Below, one piece after another: positions 16,076 to 63,839 of a stretch of DNA of 64,000 bases; the stretch's first letter is position 1; every line of letters starts with the position of its first letter. The DNA lies in the IMG/VR virus record IMGVR_UViG_3300008516_000204, positions 1-64,000 of that record; one strand, written 5' to 3'. Origin of the DNA: a virus. The position numbers and the translations under genes are program-made. Below the pieces are notes generated by a model. It did not search any database. It was not told the origin of the DNA and saw only the letters and a list, made by a program, of their open reading frames with translations.

Positions 16076-16081
16076 ATTATA
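16076..16081 (-). promoter_or_regulatory. Candidate late promoter -10 box
   Basis: On the minus strand a perfect TATAAT occurs about 60 bases before the portal start. At the expected spacing the -35 region reads TTATAA rather than TTGACA. A -10 without a good -35 is what one would expect of a late promoter that needs a phage factor, such as the sigma region-4-like protein at 30540. This is a prediction. Confidence 0.45.
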
Positions 16082-16223
16082 CGTAAAAAGTCCAAAAATT
16101 ATAAGTAAAATTTTAAAATAATTTCTCTAAATAGCCCTCTACTTACAAAACCATAAGGCAAGTAAAATTTAACATATTGGCATTGAAAGAGTTATAACTA
16201 TTTTGTTTGCATCTAATAGCCCA

Positions 16224-17032: not shown

Positions 17033-17060
17033 TTGACATTTCGGTATTTTGTGATAAGCT
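17033..17060 (+). promoter_or_regulatory. Early promoter, first of the series
   Basis: TTGACA at 17033-17038 is followed after 16 bases by TAAGCT within GTGATAAGCT, which aligns with the GTGGTATACT of the later promoters. It lies just before the first early gene and probably drives the early block. Confidence 0.65.
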
Positions 17061-19623: not shown

Positions 19624-19652
19624 TTGACTTTTCGGGCTTTTTATGGTATACT
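19624..19652 (+). promoter_or_regulatory. Early promoter
   Basis: TTGACT, 17 bases, then TATACT followed by TATAG. The sequence TATGGTATACTTAT is nearly the same as at 21543 and 25543, which supports a shared promoter class. Confidence 0.7.
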
Positions 19653-21542: not shown

Positions 21543-21571
21543 TTGACAAATCGGATTTTATGTGGTATACT
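21543..21571 (+). promoter_or_regulatory. Early promoter
   Basis: TTGACA, 17 bases, TATACT, within TGTGGTATACTTATG. The last 14 bases are almost identical to the promoter at 25543. Confidence 0.75.
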
Positions 21572-25542: not shown

Positions 25543-25571
25543 TTGACAAGAAACAGTTTTTGTGGTATACT
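25543..25571 (+). promoter_or_regulatory. Early promoter
   Basis: TTGACA, 17 bases, TATACT within TGTGGTATACTTATG. It restarts transcription after the HNH gene. Confidence 0.75.
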
Positions 25572-28852: not shown

Positions 28853-29092
28853 ATGAGAAAGAAAGAGTATAGGAAGGTAGAACTAACTTGCGTAGATATA
28901 ATTTCTTATGAGAAAGGAATTTGGAAACCAGAAGAATTGGAATTGCCAGAAGTAAAGATAGTCGGTTATTTGTGGTTTAAAGACAAGGAAAAGGTTGCTC
29001 TTAAAAGGATAGAAGGACATCCTGAAGATGAGCCCATTCTAATACCATTGGGATGCGTAAAGAAGATGACCTATCTTAAGGAAGTAAAATGA
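28853..29092 (+). CDS. Hypothetical protein upstream of the cyclase
   Basis: GGAAGGTG suits the ATG at 28853 better than one at 28838. The 79-residue product is beta-rich (VELTCVDIISYEKG and IVGYLWFKDKEKVALKRIEG) and overlaps the cyclase gene by four bases, so the two are co-translated. It could be a partner or regulator of the cyclase. I do not recognise it. Confidence 0.6.
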   Translation: MRKKEYRKVELTCVDIISYEKGIWKPEELELPEVKIVGYLWFKDKEKVALKRIEGHPEDEPILIPLGCVKKMTYLKEVK

Positions 29093-29607
29093 CTAAAAGA
29101 GAACTTCAGCGAAAATTAAAGAAATTAGAAACCAAACTAAAAAGATATAAAAAATTTAGTTGGTATGATGACTTAACCAATCTTTTTAATAGAAGAAAAT
29201 TAAAGAGAGATTTGAATAGGTTATGCTATGATTATAAGAGATATAGACATATATTTATGATGATTTTAATAGATATAGATGGATTTAAAGAAATAAACGA
29301 CACCAAAGGACATTTGGAAGGAGATAGAGTTTTAAAGAAATTTGCAAATATAATTAAAAAAGCTATTAGAGAAACTGACAGAGCCTACAGACCGAGTGGA
29401 GACGAATTTGTTATTGTATTACCTCATAGTAATATTAAAAGTGCCAATAATGTTATACGAAGAATTAAGACAAATGCACAGGTAAATATAAGTTATGGAA
29501 TAGATAGAGGAAAGAAACCAAAAGAATTGCTTATTAATATAGATAAAAAAATGTATGAAAATAAAAGGAAGAATACTACAAAGAATAGAATAATAACTGG
29601 GACTTGA
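29089..29607 (+). CDS. Diguanylate cyclase (GGDEF domain)
   Basis: This 172-residue protein makes cyclic-di-GMP from two GTP in the host cytosol. It has a 25-residue coiled lead, then the whole GGDEF domain. DDLTNLFNRR is at 27-36, LIDIDGFKEIND (metal Asp62) at 60-71, GHLEGDRVL follows, and the active-site loop SGDEF is at 103-107. RETD at 94-97 lies exactly five residues before it, the place of the product-inhibition RxxD site. Ser replaces the first Gly. No sensor domain is present, so output probably depends on expression and feedback. Its stop lies within the promoter of the riboswitch region. Confidence 0.88.
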   Translation: MTKRELQRKLKKLETKLKRYKKFSWYDDLTNLFNRRKLKRDLNRLCYDYKRYRHIFMMILIDIDGFKEINDTKGHLEGDRVLKKFANIIKKAIRETDRAYRPSGDEFVIVLPHSNIKSANNVIRRIKTNAQVNISYGIDRGKKPKELLINIDKKMYENKRKNTTKNRIITGT

Positions 29608-29632
29608 CAAATTAGGTTTTATAGCATATACT
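29604..29632 (+). promoter_or_regulatory. Promoter of the riboswitch-controlled operon
   Basis: TTGACA at 29604-29609, 17 bases, TATACT at 29627-29632. It overlaps the stop codon of the cyclase gene and would start RNA near 29639, about 25 bases before the first aptamer. It belongs to the same family as the early promoters. Confidence 0.75.
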
Positions 29633-29663: not shown

Positions 29664-29747
29664 TATCCTCGATAAAGGTAAACCAGCCGAAAGACTGGGG
29701 CACAAAACTCAAGGTCGTTTTAAGCGAAGCCGAGTTGCCGAAGGATA
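29664..29747 (+). ncRNA. GEMM-type (cyclic-di-GMP-I-like) riboswitch 1
   Basis: P1 is TATCC (29664) with GGATA (29743). After GATAAAGGTAAACC comes the stem CCAG/CTGG with an inner C-GAAA-G tetraloop. Then follow GGGGCACAAAAC (compare GGGACGCAAAGC) and a second stem, AACTC/GAGTT, ending in GCCGAGTTGCCGAAG. These parts appear in the order of the GEMM-I (cyclic-di-GMP-I) class, including the tetraloop and its receptor-like GCCGAGTTGCC. Some core bases differ from the commonest form, so the ligand (c-di-GMP or cyclic AMP-GMP) cannot be fixed by eye. Confidence 0.8.
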
Positions 29748-29765
29748 GGTAATTCGGCTTTTTTA
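29727..29765 (+). terminator. Intrinsic terminator 1, overlapping aptamer 1
   Basis: GCCGAGTTGCC (29729) pairs with GGTAATTCGGC (29748), and a T-rich run follows. The 5' arm is also the 3' strand of the aptamer, so the folded aptamer and the terminator exclude each other. Ligand binding should therefore allow read-through. Confidence 0.85.
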
Positions 29766-29815
29766 TTTAGGAGGAATTTCTGAAGTAGTATAACTTCAAC
29801 ACACAATTTGATTTA

Positions 29816-29882
29816 CGATAAAGGCAATTCGCTAGTATAGCGAAGCGCAAAGCTGTGGGTCAGAGATGATAGCCGAGCTACC
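29816..29882 (+). ncRNA. GEMM-type riboswitch 2 (less typical)
   Basis: CGATAAAGGCAA is followed by the stem TTCGCT/AGCGAA, then GCGCAAAGC (class core CGCAAAGC), GTGGGTC and GCCGAGCTACC, parallel to riboswitch 1. The first stem has a five-base AGTAT loop in place of the GAAA tetraloop, and I could not find a clear P1. It is probably a diverged member of the same class, with possibly altered affinity or ligand. Confidence 0.6.
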
Positions 29883-29909
29883 ACAGTATTCGGTAGCTCG
29901 GCTTTTTTT
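29871..29909 (+). terminator. Intrinsic terminator 2, overlapping aptamer 2
   Basis: GCCGAGCTACC (29872) and GGTAGCTCGGC (29892) form a perfect 11 bp stem followed by seven Ts. As in the first unit, the 5' arm is the 3' strand of the aptamer, so ligand binding should turn transcription on. Confidence 0.9.
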
Positions 29910-29928
29910 CTAAAAAAGGAGGTCTAAA

Positions 29929-30510
29929 GTGCCTATGAAATTAATTAACCGATTAATAATAGCAACTATTTTATGCTCGGTAAACTTAATAGCTTATGGG
30001 GAAGTGATGGAGGGCGAGGGTTTTGCTATCGGTGGGTTAAAGGGCAGATATTATGAAAATGGTGGATGTATCTATTTTATTGGGGATTTTACAGAGAAAG
30101 AAATTATTATGCACCAACAAAAATATGAAAAAAGAATGACTAAAAGAGCAAGGCAAGTCGATGGTGAAATACAGCGAAAACATGAAATAGAGATTGAGAA
30201 AATTAGGGCTCAGGCATTGAGAGATTACCTAATTGCTCAAGATATGCCATTACGAGAAATTGCGGATGCTATGAGAAATCTTAAAATTAGGCAGAATGTA
30301 AATATAGGAGATATTACTTCCTCAAGTTCTTCTTCTATTGGGGATATAACAAATACATCCTCCTCAATTTCCGAAGGCAGTAATGCTACAGGAACTGGTG
30401 GAACTTTAACCAATACAAATACCAATTCGGCCAGAAGTTGGGGTTGCCCTTGTATAAAATGTCTTGAAGCGCCACTGCTTGAGACCATACCAAAAGAATT
30501 AGAATATTAA
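29929..30510 (+). CDS. Exported protein under riboswitch control
   Basis: This 193-residue protein starts at GTG, with AAGGAGGT five bases before it, just after terminator 2. Residues 1-24 form a signal peptide (basic start, INRLIIATILCSVNLIAYG). A Gly-rich part, a long charged helix (KRMTKRARQVDGEIQRKHEI) and a Ser/Thr-rich repeat with two IGDIT units and NTNTNS follow, then a Cys-containing tail (WGCPCIKC). It is probably secreted to the periplasm or cell surface. I do not recognise the family. As the first gene past the switches it is their most direct output. Confidence 0.75.
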   Translation: MPMKLINRLIIATILCSVNLIAYGEVMEGEGFAIGGLKGRYYENGGCIYFIGDFTEKEIIMHQQKYEKRMTKRARQVDGEIQRKHEIEIEKIRAQALRDYLIAQDMPLREIADAMRNLKIRQNVNIGDITSSSSSSIGDITNTSSSISEGSNATGTGGTLTNTNTNSARSWGCPCIKCLEAPLLETIPKELEY

Positions 30511-30539
30511 AAATTAGTTTACTAAATGAGGAGGAGCTA

Positions 30540-30884
30540 ATGTGTCCAAAACAATACAAAGAAATATTCCGAGGAAAGACTGCTCGAACTCTGGAACTAT
30601 TGAGAGAGGAACAAGAACCCAAAACTCCTCTGGAAATTCTCATTGAGGAGGAGAAAAATGAGTTTGATGTTACCCAGAAAAAGCAGGAACATTTAGTCAA
30701 GGAAGTCAGGAGGGCTTTGAAAAGTTTGACATTAAGACAAAGGCAATGTATCAGATTATACTTTACAAGGAACAAAAAGCAGAAAGAAATAGCTCAAATA
30801 TTAGGCATTAATCAGAATGTAGTAACAGTACATCTTGCGAGAGCGAAAAAAAAGTTAAAAAAAGTGCTTAAAGGGAAGCGATAA
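30540..30884 (+). CDS. Sigma-70 region 4-like transcription factor
   Basis: This 114-residue protein ends with a helix-turn-helix (ALKSLTLRQRQCIRLYFTRN, then KEIAQILGINQNVVTVHLAR) as in sigma factor region 4. The first 60 residues are acidic and do not look like region 2. It may bind RNA polymerase or -35 DNA and redirect transcription to late genes such as the portal promoter. GAGGAGG precedes the ATG, and no promoter is visible between it and the exported protein, so it lies in the riboswitch operon. Confidence 0.75.
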   Translation: MCPKQYKEIFRGKTARTLELLREEQEPKTPLEILIEEEKNEFDVTQKKQEHLVKEVRRALKSLTLRQRQCIRLYFTRNKKQKEIAQILGINQNVVTVHLARAKKKLKKVLKGKR

Positions 30885-33749: not shown

Positions 33750-36044
33750 GTGAGAATAAAAAATTTAGAAGAACTAAAAAATAAACTCAGACCTTATTTA
33801 AAGGAATATCTCGAACTCAATGATACTGTATTCGAGGGGAATCACCTGACCTGTCCCTGTCGGTCTAATCACAGGAACGATGACAACACCCCATCTGCGA
33901 CATTCTTCCCCGACGATGAGCATATCAAGTGCTTTGTGTGTGACGATGTATCCAATGCCGACATATTTGCTTGTGCTTATTTTCTTGAGGGAAAGCCTCT
34001 TACTGGTTCTGAATTTATCAGTGATAATGTTTTATACTTGGCGAAAAAGTTTGATATCTCCTATAAGGTGGAGGACATAAGCGACAGGGAAAAGCAAGCG
34101 AGTCAGTTGCGAGAAATTTTGGAAGTGGCTAACAAGATGATGAAAGCGGTAATAAAGCAGGAACATTCCTCGTTGAAAAAAGTCAAGGATTATATTAAGA
34201 AAAGACATTGGGATAAAATCATAGACAAGTTTGAGTTTGGTTACTGCCTTTATGAGAAGTTAATTGCTAATCTTTTGAAGCGGGGATATACCAAAGAACA
34301 GCTTGAAATGGCTGGCTTAACAGATAAAGATAATGGGAGAAACCAGAATAGTGCCAAAGGCGTTTTGAATAATCGGCTCGTATTTCCCATTAGGGACGGA
34401 TATGGCAGGATAACTGGGTTTGCTAGCAGACGATTAAGCGACAAAAATGGGGAGCAGAAATACATCAACTTTAGGGCGACTAATTTGTATAAAAAAGCCG
34501 AGATACTATATAACTTGAAAGAGGCGAAAAATCATCCCAAAGTCTATCTTGTTGAGGGGTATGCCGATGTGTGGTCTTTGGCTTTAAAAGGAGTGGATAA
34601 TGTCATTGCTCTGGGAGGTTTGGGATTTAGTGATAAGCAATATGACCTTTTGGTGTATAATAGGATTAAGCAGTTGACACTCTGTCTTGATAATGATGAG
34701 GCTGGAAAAGAAGCGACTACCCGAATTGTTGAAGAAAAATTAAAGGCAAAAAGGGATATAGAAGTTTTTATCAAAGAGCCAAATGGAAATAAAGATCCAG
34801 ATGAATACTTACAAAGACATAGTGCTGAAGATTTTCTTGGCTTACCAGAGTTCACCATTTTTGAGTGGAAACTTAAGGACTTGAAAGAGAATAAAGAGAA
34901 TGAGTTTCTCAAAAATGACTTGATCCAGTTGGTAGTTAATGAGGAAGATTATGTAACCACCGAACAGATGATAAGGGATCTGGCCGAGGTTTTAAATGTT
35001 ACTTTTGAGACACTCAAAAAAGAAGTTGAGCGAAACAGGAAATTGGGTAGTGGCAAATATTTGCTAACTTCACGTGATATATTGAAAGAGAAAGCATCTC
35101 TTGAAACCGAAGTAAACCAGTTCGAGTCTTGGGCTTGGTCGAGGGGTGGTGGACTTTTGGGTCTGAAAACTGGCTATCCGATACTCACGAAAAAATTAGA
35201 TGGGTTGCAAAATGCTTTCTATCTGCTCGCTGGACAGACAAACATAGGAAAATCAGCAGTCTTATTAAATCTGGCCTTAAATCTTACGAAACATAACGAT
35301 GTCTTTGTATTGTTCTTTTCCATTGATGATAATATCAGGCAAATACTTCCGAGAATAATTGCTGCCGATACTAATTTGGAAATAAATACTGTGGCAAATC
35401 CGAAGTTCAAGATTAAATATAACAAGGAACTCAAACCAGAAAGAGCCGAAGAGTTGCTCAAAGCCCGTGAAAAAGCGATGACCAACCTAAAATCCTTGTC
35501 AAATTCTTTTGCCGTAAAAGAGGAAAACGATATTCGCAGCATAGAGGAGATGGAAAAATACATCCGAATATACAAGGAGATTGCGGGCAAGAAGCAGTTG
35601 GTTGTAATCGTTGACAATCTGCACAGGATAAAAAGCGAACTGAGGTTCGGCTCGGTGAGGGAGACATATATGTATGTGTCGGACACGCTGAAAAGATGGA
35701 AGACCGATTATGATATTCCAGTTGTGGCCACAGCCGAACTCAAGAAGATAAACTCGTTGCGGAGACCGTTGGGCGACGATATTAAGGAATGTGTTGATTT
35801 GCAGTTCGATTCAGATTTTACAGCACTACTCTACAATGATTTTGATTTGCGGGATGACAGTACCCTGTATTTTGTGGATAATAATGGGAAATCCCAACCT
35901 GTCATTGAAATAAGCGTTATCAAGAACAAGACGGGCGGGTTCAAGGGAAAGTTATACTACAAATTTTATAAAAATTTTTCCAAGATAGTTGAGGCTTCAA
36001 GAGAGGAAATGGAGCAATACTTTTCAGATTTTATAGGAAGATAA
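33750..36044 (+). CDS. Primase-helicase (zinc, TOPRIM and DnaB-like domains)
   Basis: This 764-residue protein makes primers and unwinds the fork, like T7 gp4. It begins at GTG. The zinc site has Cys35, Cys37, Cys61 and Cys64. A TOPRIM domain has VYLVEGYADVWS, then IALGGLGF and LTLCLDNDEAGKEA, at about 265-330. A DnaB-type ATPase has Walker A AGQTNIGKSAV near 490 and a Walker B-like LVVIVDNLHRIKSE, with later IKECVDLQFDSD. All three parts are intact. It is the first large replication gene and probably works with the PolA at 56126. Confidence 0.9.
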   Translation: MRIKNLEELKNKLRPYLKEYLELNDTVFEGNHLTCPCRSNHRNDDNTPSATFFPDDEHIKCFVCDDVSNADIFACAYFLEGKPLTGSEFISDNVLYLAKKFDISYKVEDISDREKQASQLREILEVANKMMKAVIKQEHSSLKKVKDYIKKRHWDKIIDKFEFGYCLYEKLIANLLKRGYTKEQLEMAGLTDKDNGRNQNSAKGVLNNRLVFPIRDGYGRITGFASRRLSDKNGEQKYINFRATNLYKKAEILYNLKEAKNHPKVYLVEGYADVWSLALKGVDNVIALGGLGFSDKQYDLLVYNRIKQLTLCLDNDEAGKEATTRIVEEKLKAKRDIEVFIKEPNGNKDPDEYLQRHSAEDFLGLPEFTIFEWKLKDLKENKENEFLKNDLIQLVVNEEDYVTTEQMIRDLAEVLNVTFETLKKEVERNRKLGSGKYLLTSRDILKEKASLETEVNQFESWAWSRGGGLLGLKTGYPILTKKLDGLQNAFYLLAGQTNIGKSAVLLNLALNLTKHNDVFVLFFSIDDNIRQILPRIIAADTNLEINTVANPKFKIKYNKELKPERAEELLKAREKAMTNLKSLSNSFAVKEENDIRSIEEMEKYIRIYKEIAGKKQLVVIVDNLHRIKSELRFGSVRETYMYVSDTLKRWKTDYDIPVVATAELKKINSLRRPLGDDIKECVDLQFDSDFTALLYNDFDLRDDSTLYFVDNNGKSQPVIEISVIKNKTGGFKGKLYYKFYKNFSKIVEASREEMEQYFSDFIGR

Positions 36045-38088: not shown

Positions 38089-38116
38089 AAACTACCAAAA
38101 ATAGGAGATGATTAAA

Positions 38117-39325
38117 ATGAAAAAGAAAACTAATTTAGTGCAGTTTAACAAGGATTACAACAGGGGGTTGACTACCACTCAACTGTCCATTAAATATGGC
38201 ATCAGCGAAAGGACTGTTGAGAGAATAGCAGCCAAACAAAGAGCAAAAGGACAGTTAAACTATAAGAAATATATTACCAAATCAGGGGTTATCAAGGAAG
38301 ATGCTTCTGTAACACAGAAAGAATTGTTGAAACTTTTGGCTCTTTATGAGACCAAATCTGTAGTTGCCAAGAAACTGGGCATAAGTGAAGGCAAAGTGAG
38401 GGGATTATGCAAGCAATATAATATAATCGATTCAACAACTCGTTCTAAACTTCTGGTAGAATCCTTGCACGAACTTACGAAAGATGTTAAACCATATCAG
38501 GCAGCCAAAACCCATTCACATATTACTGGCGAAACGCTGGTAATCCAATTAACCGACTGGCATGCTGGAAAAATAGTAAAAGACCAACAGGGTAATGTGG
38601 TCTATAACGAAGCCGTATTTAAGCGGAGAATGGATAAATTCTGTGCCCAGATATTGAAGCTATTGGACAACCACATTAAGAAAGGGACTAAAATCAATGA
38701 TGTGGTTCTCATCTCGACTGGAGATAATGCCAATGGCGAAGACATATATGCAACACAGGCATATGAACAAGAGCTTGCACCTCCTTATCAGGTAATGTTG
38801 GTTGTGGAAGTGTTTACCAAATTGATTCAGGCTTTGCTAGATAGGAAACTAAATGTTAAGTTTTATGGGGTAAAGGGAAATCATGGTCGCCTTGGCAAGG
38901 ATAAAGACCCGAATTCCAACTGGGATATTATGATATACCTTATCCTCAAATATCAAGCGTATGCTAATAATAAAAAGGTTGAGATAAATTTTTCTACTTT
39001 AGATTACCTCAATTTTGAAATACAGGGATGGAAATACCACATTCGGCATATAGCACCAGAGCAACCAGACACATCTGCAAGCAGGGCGAAGTTTGGTGGG
39101 TGGGCTGGTATGCACAACGCCGATGCGATAGTCTATGGACACTTTCATCACTTCGGCATTTTCGATGCCAATGGAACGAGAGTGTTCAGGGGCGGTTCGC
39201 CCATCGGTGCGGATGAGTTTGCCGAATCTTTGGCTAAAGAGGCTGACCCAGTTCAGTTGGTCTGGGGCGTTTCAAAGGAGAGGATTCTGACCTTTAGCTA
39301 TGCGGTTGATTTAGCGGATATTTAA
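38117..39325 (+). CDS. Metallophosphoesterase with N-terminal helix-turn-helix
   Basis: The ATG at 38117 has a well-spaced GGAG. The roughly 402-residue protein starts with two helix-turn-helix units (LTTTQLSIKYGISERTVERI and KSVVAKKLGISEGKVRGLC). A calcineurin-like phosphoesterase follows, with the metal motifs QLTDWHAGK, STGDNANGED, VKGNHGRLG and VYGHFHHFG. It resembles phage SbcD/Mre11-like or nucleotide phosphoesterases. The DNA-binding start suggests a nuclease. The substrate is not shown. Confidence 0.8.
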   Translation: MKKKTNLVQFNKDYNRGLTTTQLSIKYGISERTVERIAAKQRAKGQLNYKKYITKSGVIKEDASVTQKELLKLLALYETKSVVAKKLGISEGKVRGLCKQYNIIDSTTRSKLLVESLHELTKDVKPYQAAKTHSHITGETLVIQLTDWHAGKIVKDQQGNVVYNEAVFKRRMDKFCAQILKLLDNHIKKGTKINDVVLISTGDNANGEDIYATQAYEQELAPPYQVMLVVEVFTKLIQALLDRKLNVKFYGVKGNHGRLGKDKDPNSNWDIMIYLILKYQAYANNKKVEINFSTLDYLNFEIQGWKYHIRHIAPEQPDTSASRAKFGGWAGMHNADAIVYGHFHHFGIFDANGTRVFRGGSPIGADEFAESLAKEADPVQLVWGVSKERILTFSYAVDLADI

Positions 39326-39947: not shown

Positions 39948-42900
39948 ATGAAAACTATAGCATTAGCAATGATAGTCAAAAACGAATCGAGAGTGATAAA
40001 GCGTTGCCTCGATTCTGTCAAAAACATTATTGACTATTATGTGATAATAGAGGACACCGCTTCTACCGATGGCACAGCAGATATTATTCGTGAAACCCTG
40101 AAAGATATCCCAGGCGAGATAATACAGAAGGACTGGGTAGGATTTGCGGATACTCGAAACCATTATATTGAGGCATCGAAAGGGAAGGCGGATTATATTT
40201 TGGTAATGGATGCCGACCAAATTTTGGAAGTTGATAACGATTTTGACAAGGATAAATTGGACAAGGACATTTATAACTGTATCGTGAAATATCCCACATT
40301 GCAACACCATTTCCCCAAGATATTTAGACCAGATTGCGGATGCAAATATAAGGGCATTATACATAACTTTTTATCTACGAGTAATGTAACTGTGGGACAG
40401 CTAAATAATATCAGATTTTTAGATCTACACGACGGGAAGCGGGCAATGAATTATTCGGAAAAGATAAAGAAAGATATTGAGATTTTGAAAAGTGCTATTA
40501 AGGCAGACCCAGCAAATAAAGTGAGATATACATTTTACTTGGCACAATCTTTGCGTGAAGATGGAAGATATGAACAGGCTATTAGATACTATAAGAAACG
40601 AGTAAGTTATAAGGGTTGGCGAGAGGAAGTTTATCGAAGTTTATACCAAATAGGTAATTGTTATTTAGCACTTAAAGATTATAATAGAGCTATCTACAGT
40701 TACTTAAAAGCATATAATTACAGACCAACGAGGGCAGAATCTATTTTCAAATTAGCACTTTTATATCGCAATCTCGGACAGAGGCAATTGGCGTACGAAT
40801 TTTCTAAAATAGGAATCGGGATTAAGTATCCCAAATCCGATACATTATTTGTTGAGCATAATATCTACGATTATCTAATGTTGTTTGAGTATTCAATTGC
40901 CCTTTATTATGTAGGAAGATATGCGGAGTCGATTAGGGTTTGTAATAGGATAGATTCTATGGTGGGAGTTCCCAAATCTATTAAAGAACAGAATAGAAAA
41001 AATCGGGAGTTCTCGCTGAATAAGATTTCAGAGTGGTCTATGGACAAGGAAATGTATAATTGGATAAGAAGAAATGTACCCAGAGGGGGTACTATACTTG
41101 AACTTGGAAGTGGGAAAAGCACGATAGATTTAGAAAAGGATTATAGAGTATATTCAGTAGAGCATAGTAAAGAGTGGTTAAATCTCTCACCCAAAAGTAG
41201 ATATATTTATGCTCCGATAAGAAAGGGTTGGTATGATATTGATGTATTGAAAAGGGAGATGCCAATTCACTATAATTTGATAATTGTGGATGGTCCGCCA
41301 GGATATATAGGAAGAAAGGGTTTCTATGAGAATCTAAAATTGTTTAATACCAAAGTTCCCATTCTATTTGACGATACCAATCGCAAAGCAGAAAAAGGTT
41401 TATTGGAAAAGGTAGCAAAGAAATTAAGAACCAAATATACAGAATATAATGTCAGTAATAAAAAGTTTGCTGTGCTTAATTATATAGAGAAAAAGCCTAA
41501 GAAATATGATGTTATTTTCTATGATAATGTTACAACACCATTTACTTCAAGGACTTGGAAAAGTAAGGCTGTCGGGGCTTCAATATTGGAAGCATCATTA
41601 TTGCTAACTGAACTCGCTAAAGAGAAGAAAGTTTTGGCTTTTTCTCGGACAGATAAGTCAAAGGTACAAGATAGAATTTTGTGGAAGAATTATAATAATT
41701 GCTACAATTATGAGTGCGATACTCTGATAGTTTTCAGATACAGTAGTTTGCCTCCAATTAAGTATAAAAGACTTATCGTATGGGCACACGATGCACCACC
41801 ACTCGCCCATAGGCATTTATTTGAAGCATTAAATAGGGATAACGCAACTTTGGTTACAATATCGGATTGGCAGAAATCTCTTTTCGAAAAATATGTAAAG
41901 AATATTGAGACGATAAGATTATGGCTTCCAGATTGGATTTACAGTTATAAGACAGAAAAAGACCCAAATAAATATATCTATGCGAGTGCCAATGTGAAAG
42001 GATTAGATAGCACGATTAAACTGTGGTCGGAACTAAAAAGAGATAGCCGAATGATAGGGGCAACCTTGTATGTTTGTACGCCTGGATATGACAAAGTGGA
42101 TGAACAAAAATTGAGGGAAGCAGGTGTAGTATTTTTAGGAAGCCTTCCAACATTAGAAGATGTAATCAGGGAAATTGCAAGTTCGGTAGGAATGTTTTAT
42201 GTCAATGATTTTCCAGAGACATTTGGGGTATCTCCTTATTTGGCAGAAGTATTAGGTTGCCGAACTCATATTTTATGTGTAAAAGGATTTGGTGCTTTGA
42301 GAGAAGTGTTGAATAGCGATTTACTGACAGATGATAGGGATAAGTTTATGGCAGATGTTTTGGAGGCACATCAAAATGGTGGGCATATATTTGAGCCAGA
42401 TGTACTTACAAAAGAGGAACAATATAGAAAATGGAAGGCAATGATAGATAAAAAGGAAATCACCGAAATCCTACAGGAAAGCGATATTCCAAAAGGGATG
42501 TATTTGAGGAATTTTGAGGGTGGTAAAGAGGGATTACAGGAACTGATTAGCAACTTACCGAAGAATTGTGTTATGGCTGAAATTGGAAGTTATATTGGAG
42601 AGTCTACTGAATTATTTGCTAAAAATTGTTTTAGAGTTTATGCTATCGATGCTTGGGAAAATTATTACGATAAAAATGATAAATCATCTTATCAGTATCC
42701 TATGAAGTTAGTAGAGCAGGCTTTTGATGTTAAAACAAAAAAATTCTTTCTTAAGATAGTAAAAATAAAAAAATATAGTAAAGAAGCAAGTGAGACTTTT
42801 GGAAACAAGATTTTTGATTTTGTCTACATAGATAGCAATCATCAGTATGAGAATATCCTTGAGGATATTAAGATTTGGTTGCCGAAGATAAAGCCGAATG

Positions 42901-43031
42901 GGATGATAGGCGGGCACGATTATGGCTATTTACCCAATGTTACAAAAGCGGTTGATAAAGTATTCGGGGAGCAGAAAGTAGAAACTTTTGAGGACACAAG
43001 TTGGTTGGTTAGATTGGAAAATGTAAAATGA
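39948..43031 (+). CDS. Glycosyltransferase/methyltransferase fusion protein
   Basis: This 1027-residue protein appears to have four enzyme parts and a repeat. A family 2 glycosyltransferase (1-150) has IALAMIVKNESRVI and YILVMDADQ. TPR-like repeats (200-340) include EQAIRYYKKRV and NRAIYSYLKAYN. A small methyltransferase-like unit (360-510) has ILELGSGKSTIDL and LIIVDGPPG. A GT4-like transferase (515-840) has VTISDWQKSL and YVNDFPETFGVSPYLAEVLG. A C-terminal methyltransferase-like domain (865-1027) has MAEIGSYIGES and FVYIDSNHQYE. It probably builds and caps a glycan on virion or DNA; the acceptor is unknown. Confidence 0.8.
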   Translation: MKTIALAMIVKNESRVIKRCLDSVKNIIDYYVIIEDTASTDGTADIIRETLKDIPGEIIQKDWVGFADTRNHYIEASKGKADYILVMDADQILEVDNDFDKDKLDKDIYNCIVKYPTLQHHFPKIFRPDCGCKYKGIIHNFLSTSNVTVGQLNNIRFLDLHDGKRAMNYSEKIKKDIEILKSAIKADPANKVRYTFYLAQSLREDGRYEQAIRYYKKRVSYKGWREEVYRSLYQIGNCYLALKDYNRAIYSYLKAYNYRPTRAESIFKLALLYRNLGQRQLAYEFSKIGIGIKYPKSDTLFVEHNIYDYLMLFEYSIALYYVGRYAESIRVCNRIDSMVGVPKSIKEQNRKNREFSLNKISEWSMDKEMYNWIRRNVPRGGTILELGSGKSTIDLEKDYRVYSVEHSKEWLNLSPKSRYIYAPIRKGWYDIDVLKREMPIHYNLIIVDGPPGYIGRKGFYENLKLFNTKVPILFDDTNRKAEKGLLEKVAKKLRTKYTEYNVSNKKFAVLNYIEKKPKKYDVIFYDNVTTPFTSRTWKSKAVGASILEASLLLTELAKEKKVLAFSRTDKSKVQDRILWKNYNNCYNYECDTLIVFRYSSLPPIKYKRLIVWAHDAPPLAHRHLFEALNRDNATLVTISDWQKSLFEKYVKNIETIRLWLPDWIYSYKTEKDPNKYIYASANVKGLDSTIKLWSELKRDSRMIGATLYVCTPGYDKVDEQKLREAGVVFLGSLPTLEDVIREIASSVGMFYVNDFPETFGVSPYLAEVLGCRTHILCVKGFGALREVLNSDLLTDDRDKFMADVLEAHQNGGHIFEPDVLTKEEQYRKWKAMIDKKEITEILQESDIPKGMYLRNFEGGKEGLQELISNLPKNCVMAEIGSYIGESTELFAKNCFRVYAIDAWENYYDKNDKSSYQYPMKLVEQAFDVKTKKFFLKIVKIKKYSKEASETFGNKIFDFVYIDSNHQYENILEDIKIWLPKIKPNGMIGGHDYGYLPNVTKAVDKVFGEQKVETFEDTSWLVRLENVK

Positions 43032-43270
43032 AAACTATAAAAGAAGTTTATTATAGCCCCAAATATAATCGATTTGTTCAAATTAGAGGACTCCGAGATG
43101 ATGGATATATAATTGGAGGTTTTACTATTTTTTATAATGATGCTTTTACCACTACCAGAAATAGCAAGATGAGTAGAAATTTCTGTAAAGATTTTATTGA
43201 AATTGATAATATAGATGAGCTCAAATTTGCTAAATTGGATGAAAATACTAATACTTGGAGAATAAAATGA
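43028..43270 (+). CDS. Small beta-rich hypothetical protein
   Basis: This 80-residue protein (KEVYYSPKYNRFVQIRGL, then GYIIGGFTIFY) overlaps both sugar genes by four bases. It is co-translated with them, but its role is unknown. Confidence 0.55.
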   Translation: MKTIKEVYYSPKYNRFVQIRGLRDDGYIIGGFTIFYNDAFTTTRNSKMSRNFCKDFIEIDNIDELKFAKLDENTNTWRIK

Positions 43271-44070
43271 ACATAGGTATCTGGGGAACTGGCATAGTAG
43301 GCTCGGCAACAGGCAGGGTGCTTGAGCAGGCACACAAGGTCTATTACTATGATAAGTATAAAAAAGACCCCAAACTTACTACTGATAAAGAGTTGGTGGA
43401 TAATTGCCAGATTATATTCATTACTGTTCCTACACCTATGTTGCGAAGCGGTAGGATTGGTATAAGAGATATAAAAGACTCTCTATTTCAAATACAAAGA
43501 TTGACGAAATTGAGGAAGATAATTGTTATCAAAAGCACAGTAGTCCCAGGTACTACCAAGCGATTTGTCTACAAGTTTCCACAGTTTGACTTTGCCCATA
43601 ATCCAGAATTTTTGCGGGCTAAATATGCTTATGAAGATATGTTAAACTCCAAAAGAGTAGTGCTTGGTGTGGATAAAGATGAAATTTTCCAGATACTTGA
43701 GAAAATGTATCGTGAGATATTTAAGGAAATTCCTATTATAAAGGCGACATTCACCGAAGCCGAGATAGTAAAATATGCCTCCAATATAATGTTAGCTGGG
43801 CAGATAGCACTGGCTAATGAATTGTATCAGGTTTGTAAGCAGTTAAGAATAGACTATAAAATAATTGAACAAGTTTTAAGTTATGATAAAAGAATAGGAA
43901 CAAATATTAAAATGCCAGGTTTGGATGGTAAATTAGGTTTCGGTGGTGGATGTTTTCCTAAAGACCTCAATGCACTGATTTATAGGTCAAGGGAAGCGGG
44001 TTATCGCCCATATTTGTTGGAAGAAATTTGGCGATTAAATGTGAGAGTTAGGAAAGGTGCTAAAAAATGA
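43267..44070 (+). CDS. UDP-glucose/GDP-mannose dehydrogenase-like protein, short form
   Basis: This 267-residue enzyme would oxidise a nucleotide-sugar to its uronic acid. It has the NAD site IGIWGTGIVG (3-12), TVPTP and KSTVVPGTT, HNPEFLRA, the central-helix region, and GGGCFPKD with catalytic Cys219. Family members usually have about 400-450 residues; the C-terminal sugar-nucleotide domain is missing, so the protein ends soon after the Cys. It may act with a reduced substrate site. It overlaps neighbours on both sides, next to the glycosyltransferase. Confidence 0.8.
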   Translation: MNIGIWGTGIVGSATGRVLEQAHKVYYYDKYKKDPKLTTDKELVDNCQIIFITVPTPMLRSGRIGIRDIKDSLFQIQRLTKLRKIIVIKSTVVPGTTKRFVYKFPQFDFAHNPEFLRAKYAYEDMLNSKRVVLGVDKDEIFQILEKMYREIFKEIPIIKATFTEAEIVKYASNIMLAGQIALANELYQVCKQLRIDYKIIEQVLSYDKRIGTNIKMPGLDGKLGFGGGCFPKDLNALIYRSREAGYRPYLLEEIWRLNVRVRKGAKK

Positions 44071-56125: not shown

Positions 56126-58666
56126 ATGTCTATATACTGCACAAAATGTCCTTTACACTTAACAAGCTTTACAAACGACAAGAAACATAAGGTAATCTGT
56201 CTTTCTGGTTGTGGCTCTAAATCTGCCAAGATTATGCTCATCGGCGAAGCACCAGGGAATGATGAGCTATTTAAGAAAGAGCCATTTGTGGGCAAGGCAG
56301 GCAAAGAACTGGACAAATGTTTGAAAGAGGCAGGGATAAATCGAGCCGAGATATTTTTGAGCAATAGTTGTCGTTGCCGACCACCAGATAATCGTGACCC
56401 AAATGCCAAAGAACTAAAAGCCTGCCGAGAATTTTTGGTGAATGAGATAAACGCTATCAAACCCAATGTCATCGGGCTTCTCGGTAATATAGCGATGAAG
56501 CAGGTTCTGGGCAAAACTGGTTCACTAAAGTATCAGGGGCAACCATTTTGGAGCGATGAGTTTCAGGTTACTTGTATACCACTTATTCATCCCAGTTATA
56601 TTATTAGAAATCAGGATAATATGGAGATTAGGGAGAAATTTATCAATGCCCTCAAATTTGTTAAGGAAGCCAGCAAAACTAAAAATCCAATTAAGCGGAA
56701 AGTTTCACCAGTTAAATATGTAGTTTGCGATAATATGAAGAAAGTTAAGGCACTATTTTCAAGATTAAGGCAGATTAAAGAGAATTCTATTGACACAGAA
56801 TCGACTTCCTTGCGACCTTATAATGGCAAATTGCTTTGTGCGTCTTTTAGCTGGAAGGAAAATACTGGAATAGTCCTGCCTATTTTGGGCAGAAACCTCA
56901 AGCGGATTTGGAACAATCAGCAATATAATTGGATCTTGGGCGAGCTTCGCAAATATTTTAGTAGAAAAAATGTCAAGAAAATATATCAAAATGGTAAGCA
57001 TGATATTCAATGGTTCAAATATCACCTCGGCATAGAAAGCACGATAGAGTTTGATACTCAGTTGGCTCATTATTCTTTGAATATGGAATCGCCTCGACAC
57101 AGTCACGGACTAAAGGAAATGGCTTGGACTTTTACAGATATGGGGAACTATGCTGAAAAAGTTGACCCAAAACAATTTGGCGACCCAAAATATATTAAAG
57201 AACATTACGATGATATAATGCAATATGCCTGTGCGGATGCCGATTGCACTTTCAGGATTTACCGCAAATTATCGCCACAAATTACAAAAGAAAAAATGGA
57301 CTATGTTCTTTATAACATAATGCTTCCAGAATCCATAGTCTTGGCAGATATTGAACTAAATGGTGTCCAAATTGACAGGAAAAAATTGGAACGACTAAAA
57401 TTTCAGTATGCTCGCAACTTGAATGCAACCGAAACCAAACTTTATTCTCTGCCAGCGATTAAAACAGTTGGGAACAAGCAATATAAGAAACTTGTTGATA
57501 AGCAGAAAGCCAAGTATAAAAATTCCAAAATAATTAAGAAGCGACACACATTAAAAGAATATCTGGACAAGGTTGAGCGACCCAAGTTCAATTTCAAATC
57601 GCACCAGCAATTAGCCATATTGTTTTATGATATTTTGAAAATGCCCAAACCAGAGAAAACGAAGAAGGGAACAGCATTATCCACAGATAAAAAGACATTG
57701 GAAAAATTGGAAGGGAAACATCCCGTTATAAAACTGATTCTCAAATATAAGAAGCTGACGAAGATGTATAATACTTATATCTGCCCGACACTTGAATCTT
57801 TGGATGAGAACGACAGGATACACACGGAATATAATCAGCACATCACTCGGACTGGTAGAATTTCGTCAAGCAGACCGAATCTCCAGAATGTTCCGAAGGA
57901 GTATGGCAAGGATTTTAGGGACTGTTTTATAGCAAAAAAGGGACATAGACTATTGGAAGCAGATTCGAAACAAATCGAGTTTAGAGTATTGGCACATTTA
58001 TCCCAAGACCAGAGAATGATTGCTGATATAAAAAGTGGAAAAGATATTCATACCATTACAGCATCAAGATTGTATAGGACAAAAGAAGAAGATGTTACCA
58101 AGGAACAGCGTGATAAAAGCAAGCCATTCGTTTTCGGCGTACCTTATGGTCGTGGTGCGAAAGCCATCGCTGAACAATATAAGCTGACGCTGAAAGAGGC
58201 GGAGGAACAGTTGAGATACTTCAATCAGATTTATCCGAGGGCTTCCAGATGGAACAAGGCAGCAGTGAGTGGTGCTAAAAGACACGAATATGTTAAGAGT
58301 TGGTTCGGGAGAAAAAGACCACTATTCCATATTAATGATAAGGATAAAATGTTGTCCGAGAAAGACGAGAGAAAAGTCGTGGCATCGGCTGTCCAATCAA
58401 CCGCTTCAGACATTGTTGCCTTGCAAATGGTTGAGGTATATAAGAGATTAAGGGCGAATACCAAATCCAGAATTGTGCTAACCATTCACGATAGCATTGT
58501 AAGCGAAGTTCCCGACAATGAGATTGAAAAGGTTACAGGAATAGTAAAAGAGGAGATGACCAAAGCTCCTAAAGGATTCAGAGTTCCTCTGGATACCGAT
58601 GTCAAGGTCGGGGAACAATGGGGTTCTATGCACGATTCAGATAAGGTTGAAAGCGAGGAAGAATAA
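56126..58666 (+). CDS. DNA polymerase I fused to a uracil-DNA glycosylase-like domain
   Basis: This 846-residue protein replicates the phage DNA. Residues 1-180 match family 4 uracil-DNA glycosylase (YCTKCPLHL, IGEAPGNDE, IPLIHPSYI, with spaced Cys residues for an iron-sulfur cluster). A 3'-5' exonuclease (210-400) has SIDTESTSLRP, QNGKHDIQW and YACADADCT. The polymerase (440-846) has EADSKQIEFR, DKSKPFVFGVPYG and TIHDSIVSE as motifs A, B and C. Phe stands at the sugar-selective position. The Asn of NFG is Val. The fusion suggests uracil removal coupled with replication. Confidence 0.9.
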   Translation: MSIYCTKCPLHLTSFTNDKKHKVICLSGCGSKSAKIMLIGEAPGNDELFKKEPFVGKAGKELDKCLKEAGINRAEIFLSNSCRCRPPDNRDPNAKELKACREFLVNEINAIKPNVIGLLGNIAMKQVLGKTGSLKYQGQPFWSDEFQVTCIPLIHPSYIIRNQDNMEIREKFINALKFVKEASKTKNPIKRKVSPVKYVVCDNMKKVKALFSRLRQIKENSIDTESTSLRPYNGKLLCASFSWKENTGIVLPILGRNLKRIWNNQQYNWILGELRKYFSRKNVKKIYQNGKHDIQWFKYHLGIESTIEFDTQLAHYSLNMESPRHSHGLKEMAWTFTDMGNYAEKVDPKQFGDPKYIKEHYDDIMQYACADADCTFRIYRKLSPQITKEKMDYVLYNIMLPESIVLADIELNGVQIDRKKLERLKFQYARNLNATETKLYSLPAIKTVGNKQYKKLVDKQKAKYKNSKIIKKRHTLKEYLDKVERPKFNFKSHQQLAILFYDILKMPKPEKTKKGTALSTDKKTLEKLEGKHPVIKLILKYKKLTKMYNTYICPTLESLDENDRIHTEYNQHITRTGRISSSRPNLQNVPKEYGKDFRDCFIAKKGHRLLEADSKQIEFRVLAHLSQDQRMIADIKSGKDIHTITASRLYRTKEEDVTKEQRDKSKPFVFGVPYGRGAKAIAEQYKLTLKEAEEQLRYFNQIYPRASRWNKAAVSGAKRHEYVKSWFGRKRPLFHINDKDKMLSEKDERKVVASAVQSTASDIVALQMVEVYKRLRANTKSRIVLTIHDSIVSEVPDNEIEKVTGIVKEEMTKAPKGFRVPLDTDVKVGEQWGSMHDSDKVESEEE

Positions 58667-62819: not shown

Positions 62820-63839
62820 ATGGGAGAACTTGAAAAAATTATCAATGAAATAAATAAACAGTATCCAGGCTCGGTTATGCGACTCGGAAAATGTGCCTAT
62901 ACCAAGAAGAAACGGGTTTCCACTGGCTCTTTTGCGCTTGATATGGCGACTGGTGGAGGCATACCAGAAGGGAGCATAATCGAGATGTTTGGCCCATTAT
63001 CTTCGGGAAAAACATTTTCGGCACTCAAACTGGTCGCCGAAGTCCAGAAAATCGGAAGAAAGGCAGCATATATCGATTTGGAAAACGCCATCGATTTGGA
63101 GTGGTGCGAAAAATTGGGGGTAAACAACAAAGAGCTGATTATATCCCAACCTTCTTCGGCAGAACAGGCGATAGATACCGTTGACAAGTTGGTTAGAAGC
63201 AGAGAATTGGGGATTATTGTGATTGACAGCTTGGCGAGTATGACCCCGCTAGTAGAGATAGAAAGCTCGGCTGAAGACCAGCAAATGGGAGTCGCTGCCC
63301 GTCTCGCCAACAAAATGGTTCGGAAGGTTCAATCGGCACTGCAACCAGTTGATTTGGGAAAGGGAGAATCTTATAATAGGTGTATCGTTGTCTTCATTAA
63401 CCAGATTAGGATGAAAATCGGAGTGCTATATGGTAATCCTGAAACCACGCCTTGTGGAAAAGGTGTTGGATTTTGTGCTGCTATTCGGATTAGATTAAGC
63501 AGAAAAGAATGGCTTCAGGAAGGAACTGGCGTGAATAAAAAGACTGTTGGGCAGGTTGTCGCCTTCAAGACGGTTAAGAACAAGACCTATGAGCCATTCA
63601 GAGTGGGAACTTTCAACATTTATTTCAAGGATGGTTCAATAGACAATTATGCAAGCATCATTCAGTATGGAATATTCTATGAGTATATTAAGAGGGCAGG
63701 GGCGATTTATACTTTTGAGAAGAAAAAATTTAAAGGCAAGGTTGCCTTAATCAATCATTTAAAGGCTCATCCTAAATTGGTTGGAAAACTCAAGACCGAT
63801 ATAAAGAAAGCACTGTTTAGAGGAAATGAAGAAGAATAA
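62820..63839 (+). CDS. recA: RecA recombinase
   Basis: This 339-residue protein pairs homologous DNA. It has TGSFALDMATGGGIPEGSII, Walker A GPLSSGKT (58-65), AYIDLENAID, Walker B IIVIDSLASM and FINQIRMKIGVLYGNPETTP, the signature part of RecA with the loop 2 region. Length is that of bacterial RecA. AAGGAGAAAT precedes the ATG. Confidence 0.95.
   Translation: MGELEKIINEINKQYPGSVMRLGKCAYTKKKRVSTGSFALDMATGGGIPEGSIIEMFGPLSSGKTFSALKLVAEVQKIGRKAAYIDLENAIDLEWCEKLGVNNKELIISQPSSAEQAIDTVDKLVRSRELGIIVIDSLASMTPLVEIESSAEDQQMGVAARLANKMVRKVQSALQPVDLGKGESYNRCIVVFINQIRMKIGVLYGNPETTPCGKGVGFCAAIRIRLSRKEWLQEGTGVNKKTVGQVVAFKTVKNKTYEPFRVGTFNIYFKDGSIDNYASIIQYGIFYEYIKRAGAIYTFEKKKFKGKVALINHLKAHPKLVGKLKTDIKKALFRGNEEE

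Follow-up and report, generated by a model that had tools for sequence, protein, structure and literature searches.

Introduction

In phage lambda, early genes end at terminators that protein N overcomes for later genes. Tandem c-di-GMP-I riboswitches have been described in Bacillus thuringiensis, where the Bc3-5 triplet consists of ON switches and the terminator forms without ligand (PMC4759541); 347 doublets of tandem c-di-GMP-I riboswitches have been counted, and a digital response noted (PMC9481103). Phages carry switches too. Those of the c-di-GMP-I class in Clostridioides difficile prophages (Cdi1_4, Cdi1_5; phiCD27, phiCD119) are single, of the OFF type, and precede the antitoxin RNA of a type I toxin-antitoxin system (PMC3649979, PMC7699646), and in methylophage Melnitz a glutamine riboswitch is linked to the tmRNA gene (PMC9004378). 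Viral diguanylate cyclases are reported as auxiliary genes, for example in Mu-like viruses of the Cariaco Basin (PMC7785012). In the literature that we examined, riboswitches in phages (PMC9004378, PMC7699646) and diguanylate cyclases in viruses (PMC7785012) are both reported; a coupling of the two was not found.

The locus analysed here lies in a window of 64,000 bases, namely bases 1-64,000 of the 106,111-base IMG/VR virus record IMGVR_UViG_3300008516_000204, which comes from an uncultured bacteriophage. Like the B. thuringiensis tandem ON switches, the pair of switches in the window combines the same aptamer class with one terminator per aptamer, in a serial order expected to sharpen the response. 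Unlike them, it is located in a phage, after the phage's own cyclase gene and before genes for a regulator and for replication. It shares with the C. difficile prophages a c-di-GMP-I aptamer in phage DNA (69.1 bits at L013), but the prophage switches are single and OFF, and the phiCD27-like record tested has no GGDEF gene. The Cariaco Basin viruses also have a cyclase on a viral contig, but theirs was read as host-signalling, whereas the window cyclase is coupled to riboswitches of the same genome. Melnitz likewise uses a riboswitch for phage genes, but has no phage-made ligand. As in lambda, terminators stand between early and later genes; unlike the N protein, the predicted signal here is a small molecule sensed by RNA. 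On our estimate the balance tips slightly towards a virus that produces a second messenger and uses RNA of its own to sense it. The cyclase would be the last gene of the early operon, and the two riboswitch terminators in series would be the only intrinsic-terminator checkpoint ahead of the replication and regulatory genes.

Results

The two ends of the record (G000:C1:1-99 and 106013-106111) are identical 99-bp direct repeats, and the record therefore covers the complete genome as a circular map of about 106,012 bp. It is organized as two long arms. Rightward genes span about 17 to 85.4 kb; leftward genes, of which the portal gene is the first, run from 16.0 kb back across the record start to 85.5 kb. 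No tRNA genes were found in the phage, and BLAST against annotated phages returned no relative of the 29-33 kb region. The features discussed below are collected in Table 1.

Table 1. Positions of the features discussed, in window coordinates unless stated otherwise.
Feature	Coordinates	Strand	Evidence or remark
Portal (late) promoter region	16076..16105 (or 16076..16110)	-	TATAAT twice, 22 bases apart; TTGACA absent
Early promoter 1, first in rightward arm	17033..17060	+	TTGACA-16-TAAGCT; PWM 12.5
Early promoter 2	19624..19652	+	TTGACT-17-TATACT, TATGG before -10; conserved in G002
Early promoter 3	21543..21571	+	TTGACA-17-TATACT, TGTGG before -10; conserved in G002
Early promoter 4	25543..25571	+	TTGACA-17-TATACT, TGTGG before -10; conserved in G002
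84-aa conserved phage protein	28838..29092	+	stop overlaps cyclase start (ATGA)
172-aa diguanylate cyclase (GGDEF)	29089..29607	+	PF00990 E=7.9e-35, cut-off passed; gene ends at gate promoter
Gate-leader promoter	29604..29632	+	TTGACA-17-TATACT; overlaps cyclase stop codon; conserved in L007
c-di-GMP-I aptamer 1	29667..29742	+	RF01051, 50.9 bits
Terminator 1	29726..29765	+	14-pair stem + T tract; 5' arm inside aptamer 1
c-di-GMP-I aptamer 2	29813..29885	+	RF01051, 49.3 bits
Terminator 2	29871..29909	+	12-pair stem, 8 G-C, T run; 5' arm inside aptamer 2
Ribosome-binding site AGGAGG, first gated gene	29917..29922	+	sequence
193-aa exported protein, first gated gene	29929..30510	+	signal-like N-terminus; homologues in related phages
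114-aa regulator, sigma region 4 helix-turn-helix	30540..30884	+	PF08281 (Sigma70_r4_2) E=1.8e-12
Primase-helicase, gated block	33750..36044	+	DNAG_N, Toprim, DnaB_C
Exonuclease, gated block	38108..39325	+	phrog_284 E=7e-49
DNA polymerase, gated block	56126..58666	+	phrog_17 E=2.1e-155
UvsX/RecA-like recombinase, gated block	62820..63839	+	phrog_97 E=3.1e-67
160-aa protein, sigma regions 2 and 4	record G000:C1:75079-75561 (L003), outside window	+	region 2 PF04542 E=8.8e-8

Both aptamers exceed the curated Rfam cut-off for RF01051 (35 bits) and belong to the c-di-GMP-I class; that they bind the ligand is a prediction from this match. In the c-di-GMP binders of this class the contact bases are G20, A47 and C92 (Vc2 numbering), and A20 would mean cGAMP. 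Reading the alignment by eye, we take the corresponding bases to be G, A and C in both window aptamers.

Each aptamer is followed by a terminator that competes with it. The arms AGCCGAGTTGCC and GGTAATTCGGCT pair in the first and AGCCGAGCTACC and GGTAGCTCGGCT in the second, with a T run after each. In all four switches compared, two from the window phage and two from its relative G002, the 3' strand of the aptamer doubles as the 5' arm of the terminator, so that the two folds are mutually exclusive. The terminator helix is 100% paired over the four, with two pairs changed on both sides, and the changes between the window phage and G002 keep every pair. When switch 1 was folded at growing length, the aptamer-type fold was present by about 29,740-29,755 and the terminator took over once its 3' arm had been made; blocking that arm cost 9 to 17 kcal/mol across the four switches. 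Thus the terminator overlaps aptamer sequence and is favoured without ligand, as in a transcriptional ON riboswitch. Because the terminator fold is favoured, transcription would by default stop when ligand is absent, and c-di-GMP should allow read-through by stabilizing the aptamer; we consider it highly probable that both are ON switches. By analogy with the tandem switches counted elsewhere (PMC9481103), two in series should steepen the response.

These two terminators, together with their aptamers, form what we call the gate, and they have no equal in the genome. A stem-and-T-run score was computed on both strands of the whole 106-kb record, with 20 random genomes matched in dinucleotide composition as control. 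The riboswitch terminators score 28 and 26, every other site in the 106 kb scores at most 15, and the best random site reaches 20. No other intrinsic terminator in the record rises above chance, which bears out the absence of a strong terminator to the right claimed in an earlier sequence-only reading of this DNA. The 82-kb contig G002 gives a similar picture (28 and 27, next best site 16).

The promoters point the same way. The exact pair TTGACA-17-TATACT occurs three times in the 106-kb record (21,543; 25,543; 29,604) against 0.13 expected; all three read in the + direction and no copy comes after 29,604, so the sequence-only reading was right that no further promoter of this class lies to the right. 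A matrix built from the remaining early promoters, with the riboswitch promoter at 29,604 left out of training, ranks 25,543, 21,543, 19,624 and 29,604 at the top of the record. It finds the same five sites in both phages: these four and 17,033 in the window phage, and 21,406, 25,472, 27,035, 30,618 and 36,398 in G002. The score of the 17,033 promoter is by itself within the random range; its G002 counterpart (17.4) is outside it. All five host-type early promoters of the window phage are at or before the gate, and in G002, too, early promoters occur up to the gate only. The same reading had called for a trained scan of 30-64 kb; extended to 30-85 kb of the + strand, both in the window phage and in G002 as far as it is sequenced, it returned no site above the random maximum. 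Nor was there a strong promoter between 29,910 and 30,540, a feature named beforehand as speaking against a gate. With this layout, no transcript, whether begun upstream or at the local promoter, can avoid the gate.

On this promoter and terminator anatomy, the gate probably controls the whole 55-kb rightward block from 29.9 to 85.4 kb. The control could be more local: c-di-GMP might govern only the exported protein and the region-4 regulator, with the replication block served by other promoters or by antitermination. Matrix and consensus scans of the host type are indeed blind to promoters of another class (phage sigma or host alternative sigma), and the late promoter itself has no -35 box. 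A phage antiterminator could also override both terminators. We nevertheless regard the local switch as unlikely, because neither the window phage nor the sequenced portion of G002 has an above-chance + strand site between 30 and 85 kb, and because there is no other terminator after which a new unit would have to start.

Directly before the gate lies the cyclase gene. Its product has a short N-terminal coiled-coil-like stretch followed by a GGDEF domain, and phmmer matches it to many solved cyclases; its single-sequence AlphaFold model was poor (mean pLDDT 48) and was left unused. Five residues before the signature SGDEF, which has Ser in the first place of GG(D/E)EF, is RETD, an inhibition site (I-site) of the RxxD form. 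SGDEF is compatible with activity in MbaA of Vibrio cholerae, which makes c-di-GMP (PMC8079147), and VCA0965, with AGDEF, is reported to do the same (PMC3974145). The window protein is a predicted producer of c-di-GMP from GTP. Because its start codon overlaps the stop codon of the early gene ahead of it, the enzyme should be produced along with the early proteins, before the gate and independently of it. An ATGA-type junction also precedes the GGDEF gene in a related phage (L007); at another locus (L012) a homologue of the 84-aa protein sits immediately 5' of a sigma-like gene. A search for a PilZ effector found none.

Comparison with relatives bears on where the signal comes from. The 35-kb contig G001 has regulator, cyclase and primase-helicase proteins identical to those of the window and the same aptamer pair. 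G002 is more distant (primase 95% and region-4 protein 78% identical) and carries a different enzyme at the cyclase position, a REC-GGDEF-HD-GYP protein whose GGDEF part is only 32% identical to the window cyclase and whose best cellular relatives, from many phyla, are only about 39-45% identical. The same promoter, two aptamers and two terminators then follow, the aptamers scoring 57.1 and 33.5 bits, the weaker (aptamer 1) below the Rfam cut-off. G003 (22 kb) and G004 (17 kb), which hardly differ over the stretches compared, both encode the exported and region-4 proteins, and neither has a GGDEF match or an aptamer; G003 has no terminator by the stem-and-T-run score and has the same type of primase-helicase without a gate. 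In both, the region-4 gene comes directly after the small gene that in the window stands before the cyclase, and the exported gene has another place, separated from the regulator by other genes. The regulator is thus kept without the gate, which makes the gate an optional addition that such phages do not require. The primase-helicase at L012:10001-13570 is 1189 aa long, with an apparent intein inserted at the helicase nucleotide-binding loop.

Across these three lineages, enzyme and switches occur either together or not at all, and one type of enzyme can be exchanged for another with the switches left in place. No other indirect evidence speaks as strongly for enzyme and switches working as a pair. 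The sequence-only reading, which did not take in the cyclase gene, had suggested that the phage could delay its programme in motile cells or run it in biofilm cells. On such a host-state view, later genes would be expressed in sessile, biofilm-like cells only, and the cyclase, if active, would only reinforce this or alter host behaviour. Switches of the c-di-GMP-I class do normally respond to the c-di-GMP of the host, no GGDEF match was found in the riboswitch-bearing phage records G005 and G008 (phiCD27-like), and the G002 enzyme has a REC (input) domain as well as an HD-GYP domain that could remove c-di-GMP. Against this, a GGDEF gene directly precedes the gate in both gated lineages although the enzymes differ, none was matched in the gate-free contigs, and the cyclase is in the early, ungated part. 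Host-state sensing as the main function now looks rather unlikely, and the phage probably, though with less assurance than we attach to control of the whole block, supplies its own c-di-GMP. A role for host c-di-GMP alongside the phage-made signal is possible.

A wider search of viral contigs relied on sequence patterns. Two strict riboswitch patterns gave nothing, and a check with phiCD27 showed the second to be too strict. A third, looser pattern worked, with the limits that it misses some switches and would miss the window's own; it found 63 stretches in the viral collection, 35 of which resemble c-di-GMP-I switches, nearly all from C. difficile prophages. None of the 63 matched the GGDEF domains of the window phages, and four contigs searched whole with the GGDEF family had no match. 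An unrelated 223-kb phage contig, IMGVR_UViG_3300021400_000048, has tandem c-di-GMP-I switches on its minus strand (L112:8264-8457) that share aptamer sequence with their terminators and look ON. They precede an operon of exported proteins resembling, by eye, camelysin/TasA, and the contig has no GGDEF match.

The first gated genes are those that the sequence-only reading had described: an exported protein, recognized here by its N-terminus and with no Pfam match, and 29 bases later a sigma region-4-like protein. Could the cyclase serve to alter the host, through motility arrest, its surface or a counter to cyclic-nucleotide defence, with the riboswitch merely matching expression of the exported protein to that change? 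The first gated gene does encode a predicted exported protein, and the 223-kb contig has its tandem switches before genes for exported, surface-type proteins. We consider this explanation very improbable, as the regulator follows the exported gene so closely with no strong promoter between, and as G003 and G004 keep the exported gene apart from the regulator. Further into the block (39948-44070, + strand) are a glycosyltransferase/methyltransferase fusion gene and a UDP-glucose-dehydrogenase-like gene, which suggests surface-sugar changes in infection.

What, then, does the gate control? The proposal that c-di-GMP gates a transcription factor, and with it the step from early to later genes, holds in part. 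The gate does precede the region-4 protein and the 55-kb block, but the family search found no region 2 in the 114-aa protein, which by its sequence is a region-4-type regulator and not a complete sigma factor. A search of the PDB with its structure model matched region 4 domains at E 0.003 and above. Between the window protein (30540-30884) and that at L007:10004-10345, the N-terminal 38 residues are nearly identical and the recognition helix differs. As a candidate factor for turning on the late arm, the 160-aa protein at 75.1 kb is to be preferred; its gene is near the end of the rightward block, two genes before that for a GRGGFRPGAGRKKG-type protein, which may be a small terminase, although a family search did not confirm this. 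Both sigma-like proteins are assigned putative actions only from their domains. The portal promoter, with a -10 box and no -35 as had been noted, is conserved almost base for base in G002, and this conservation together with the missing TTGACA is what we would expect of a promoter with its own factor. A search for a repeated late-promoter motif gave four TTTACGTATAAT-like sites, none of them above the random maximum; all four are minus-strand sites.

Discussion

The DNA itself displays the aptamers, their competing terminators, the distribution of promoters and terminators, the cyclase gene and the conservation of the arrangement. The best reading of these features, to which we give a probability of about 0.58, is a feed-forward gate between early and later genes, for which the phage supplies the signal itself. 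Promoters of the host type at 17.0, 19.6, 21.5 and 25.5 kb would transcribe the early genes, the diguanylate cyclase last among them. Transcripts reaching 29.7 kb, from these promoters or from 29,604, would halt at the two serial terminators unless c-di-GMP occupied both aptamers. As the product of the cyclase accumulated, it would open both switches, probably with a steep response from two in series. RNA polymerase would then enter the genes for the exported protein, the region-4 regulator and replication, and near the end of the block would reach that for a sigma factor, a possible activator of the leftward late genes. Dependence of the entire block on the gate, and a role of the gate in timing, are predicted from the gene and signal layout. 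Counting against a self-supplied gate are the gate-free G003 and G004, the promoters to which the scans are blind, the weak aptamer 1 of G002 and the Ser in the GGDEF signature.

The module is simple to test, consisting of one enzyme and two switches, with natural relatives that have it and that lack it. Phage programmes are usually timed by proteins; the timer predicted here is a small molecule that RNA reads and that the phage itself probably makes. If this is true, phage development would be tied to the second-messenger physiology of bacteria.
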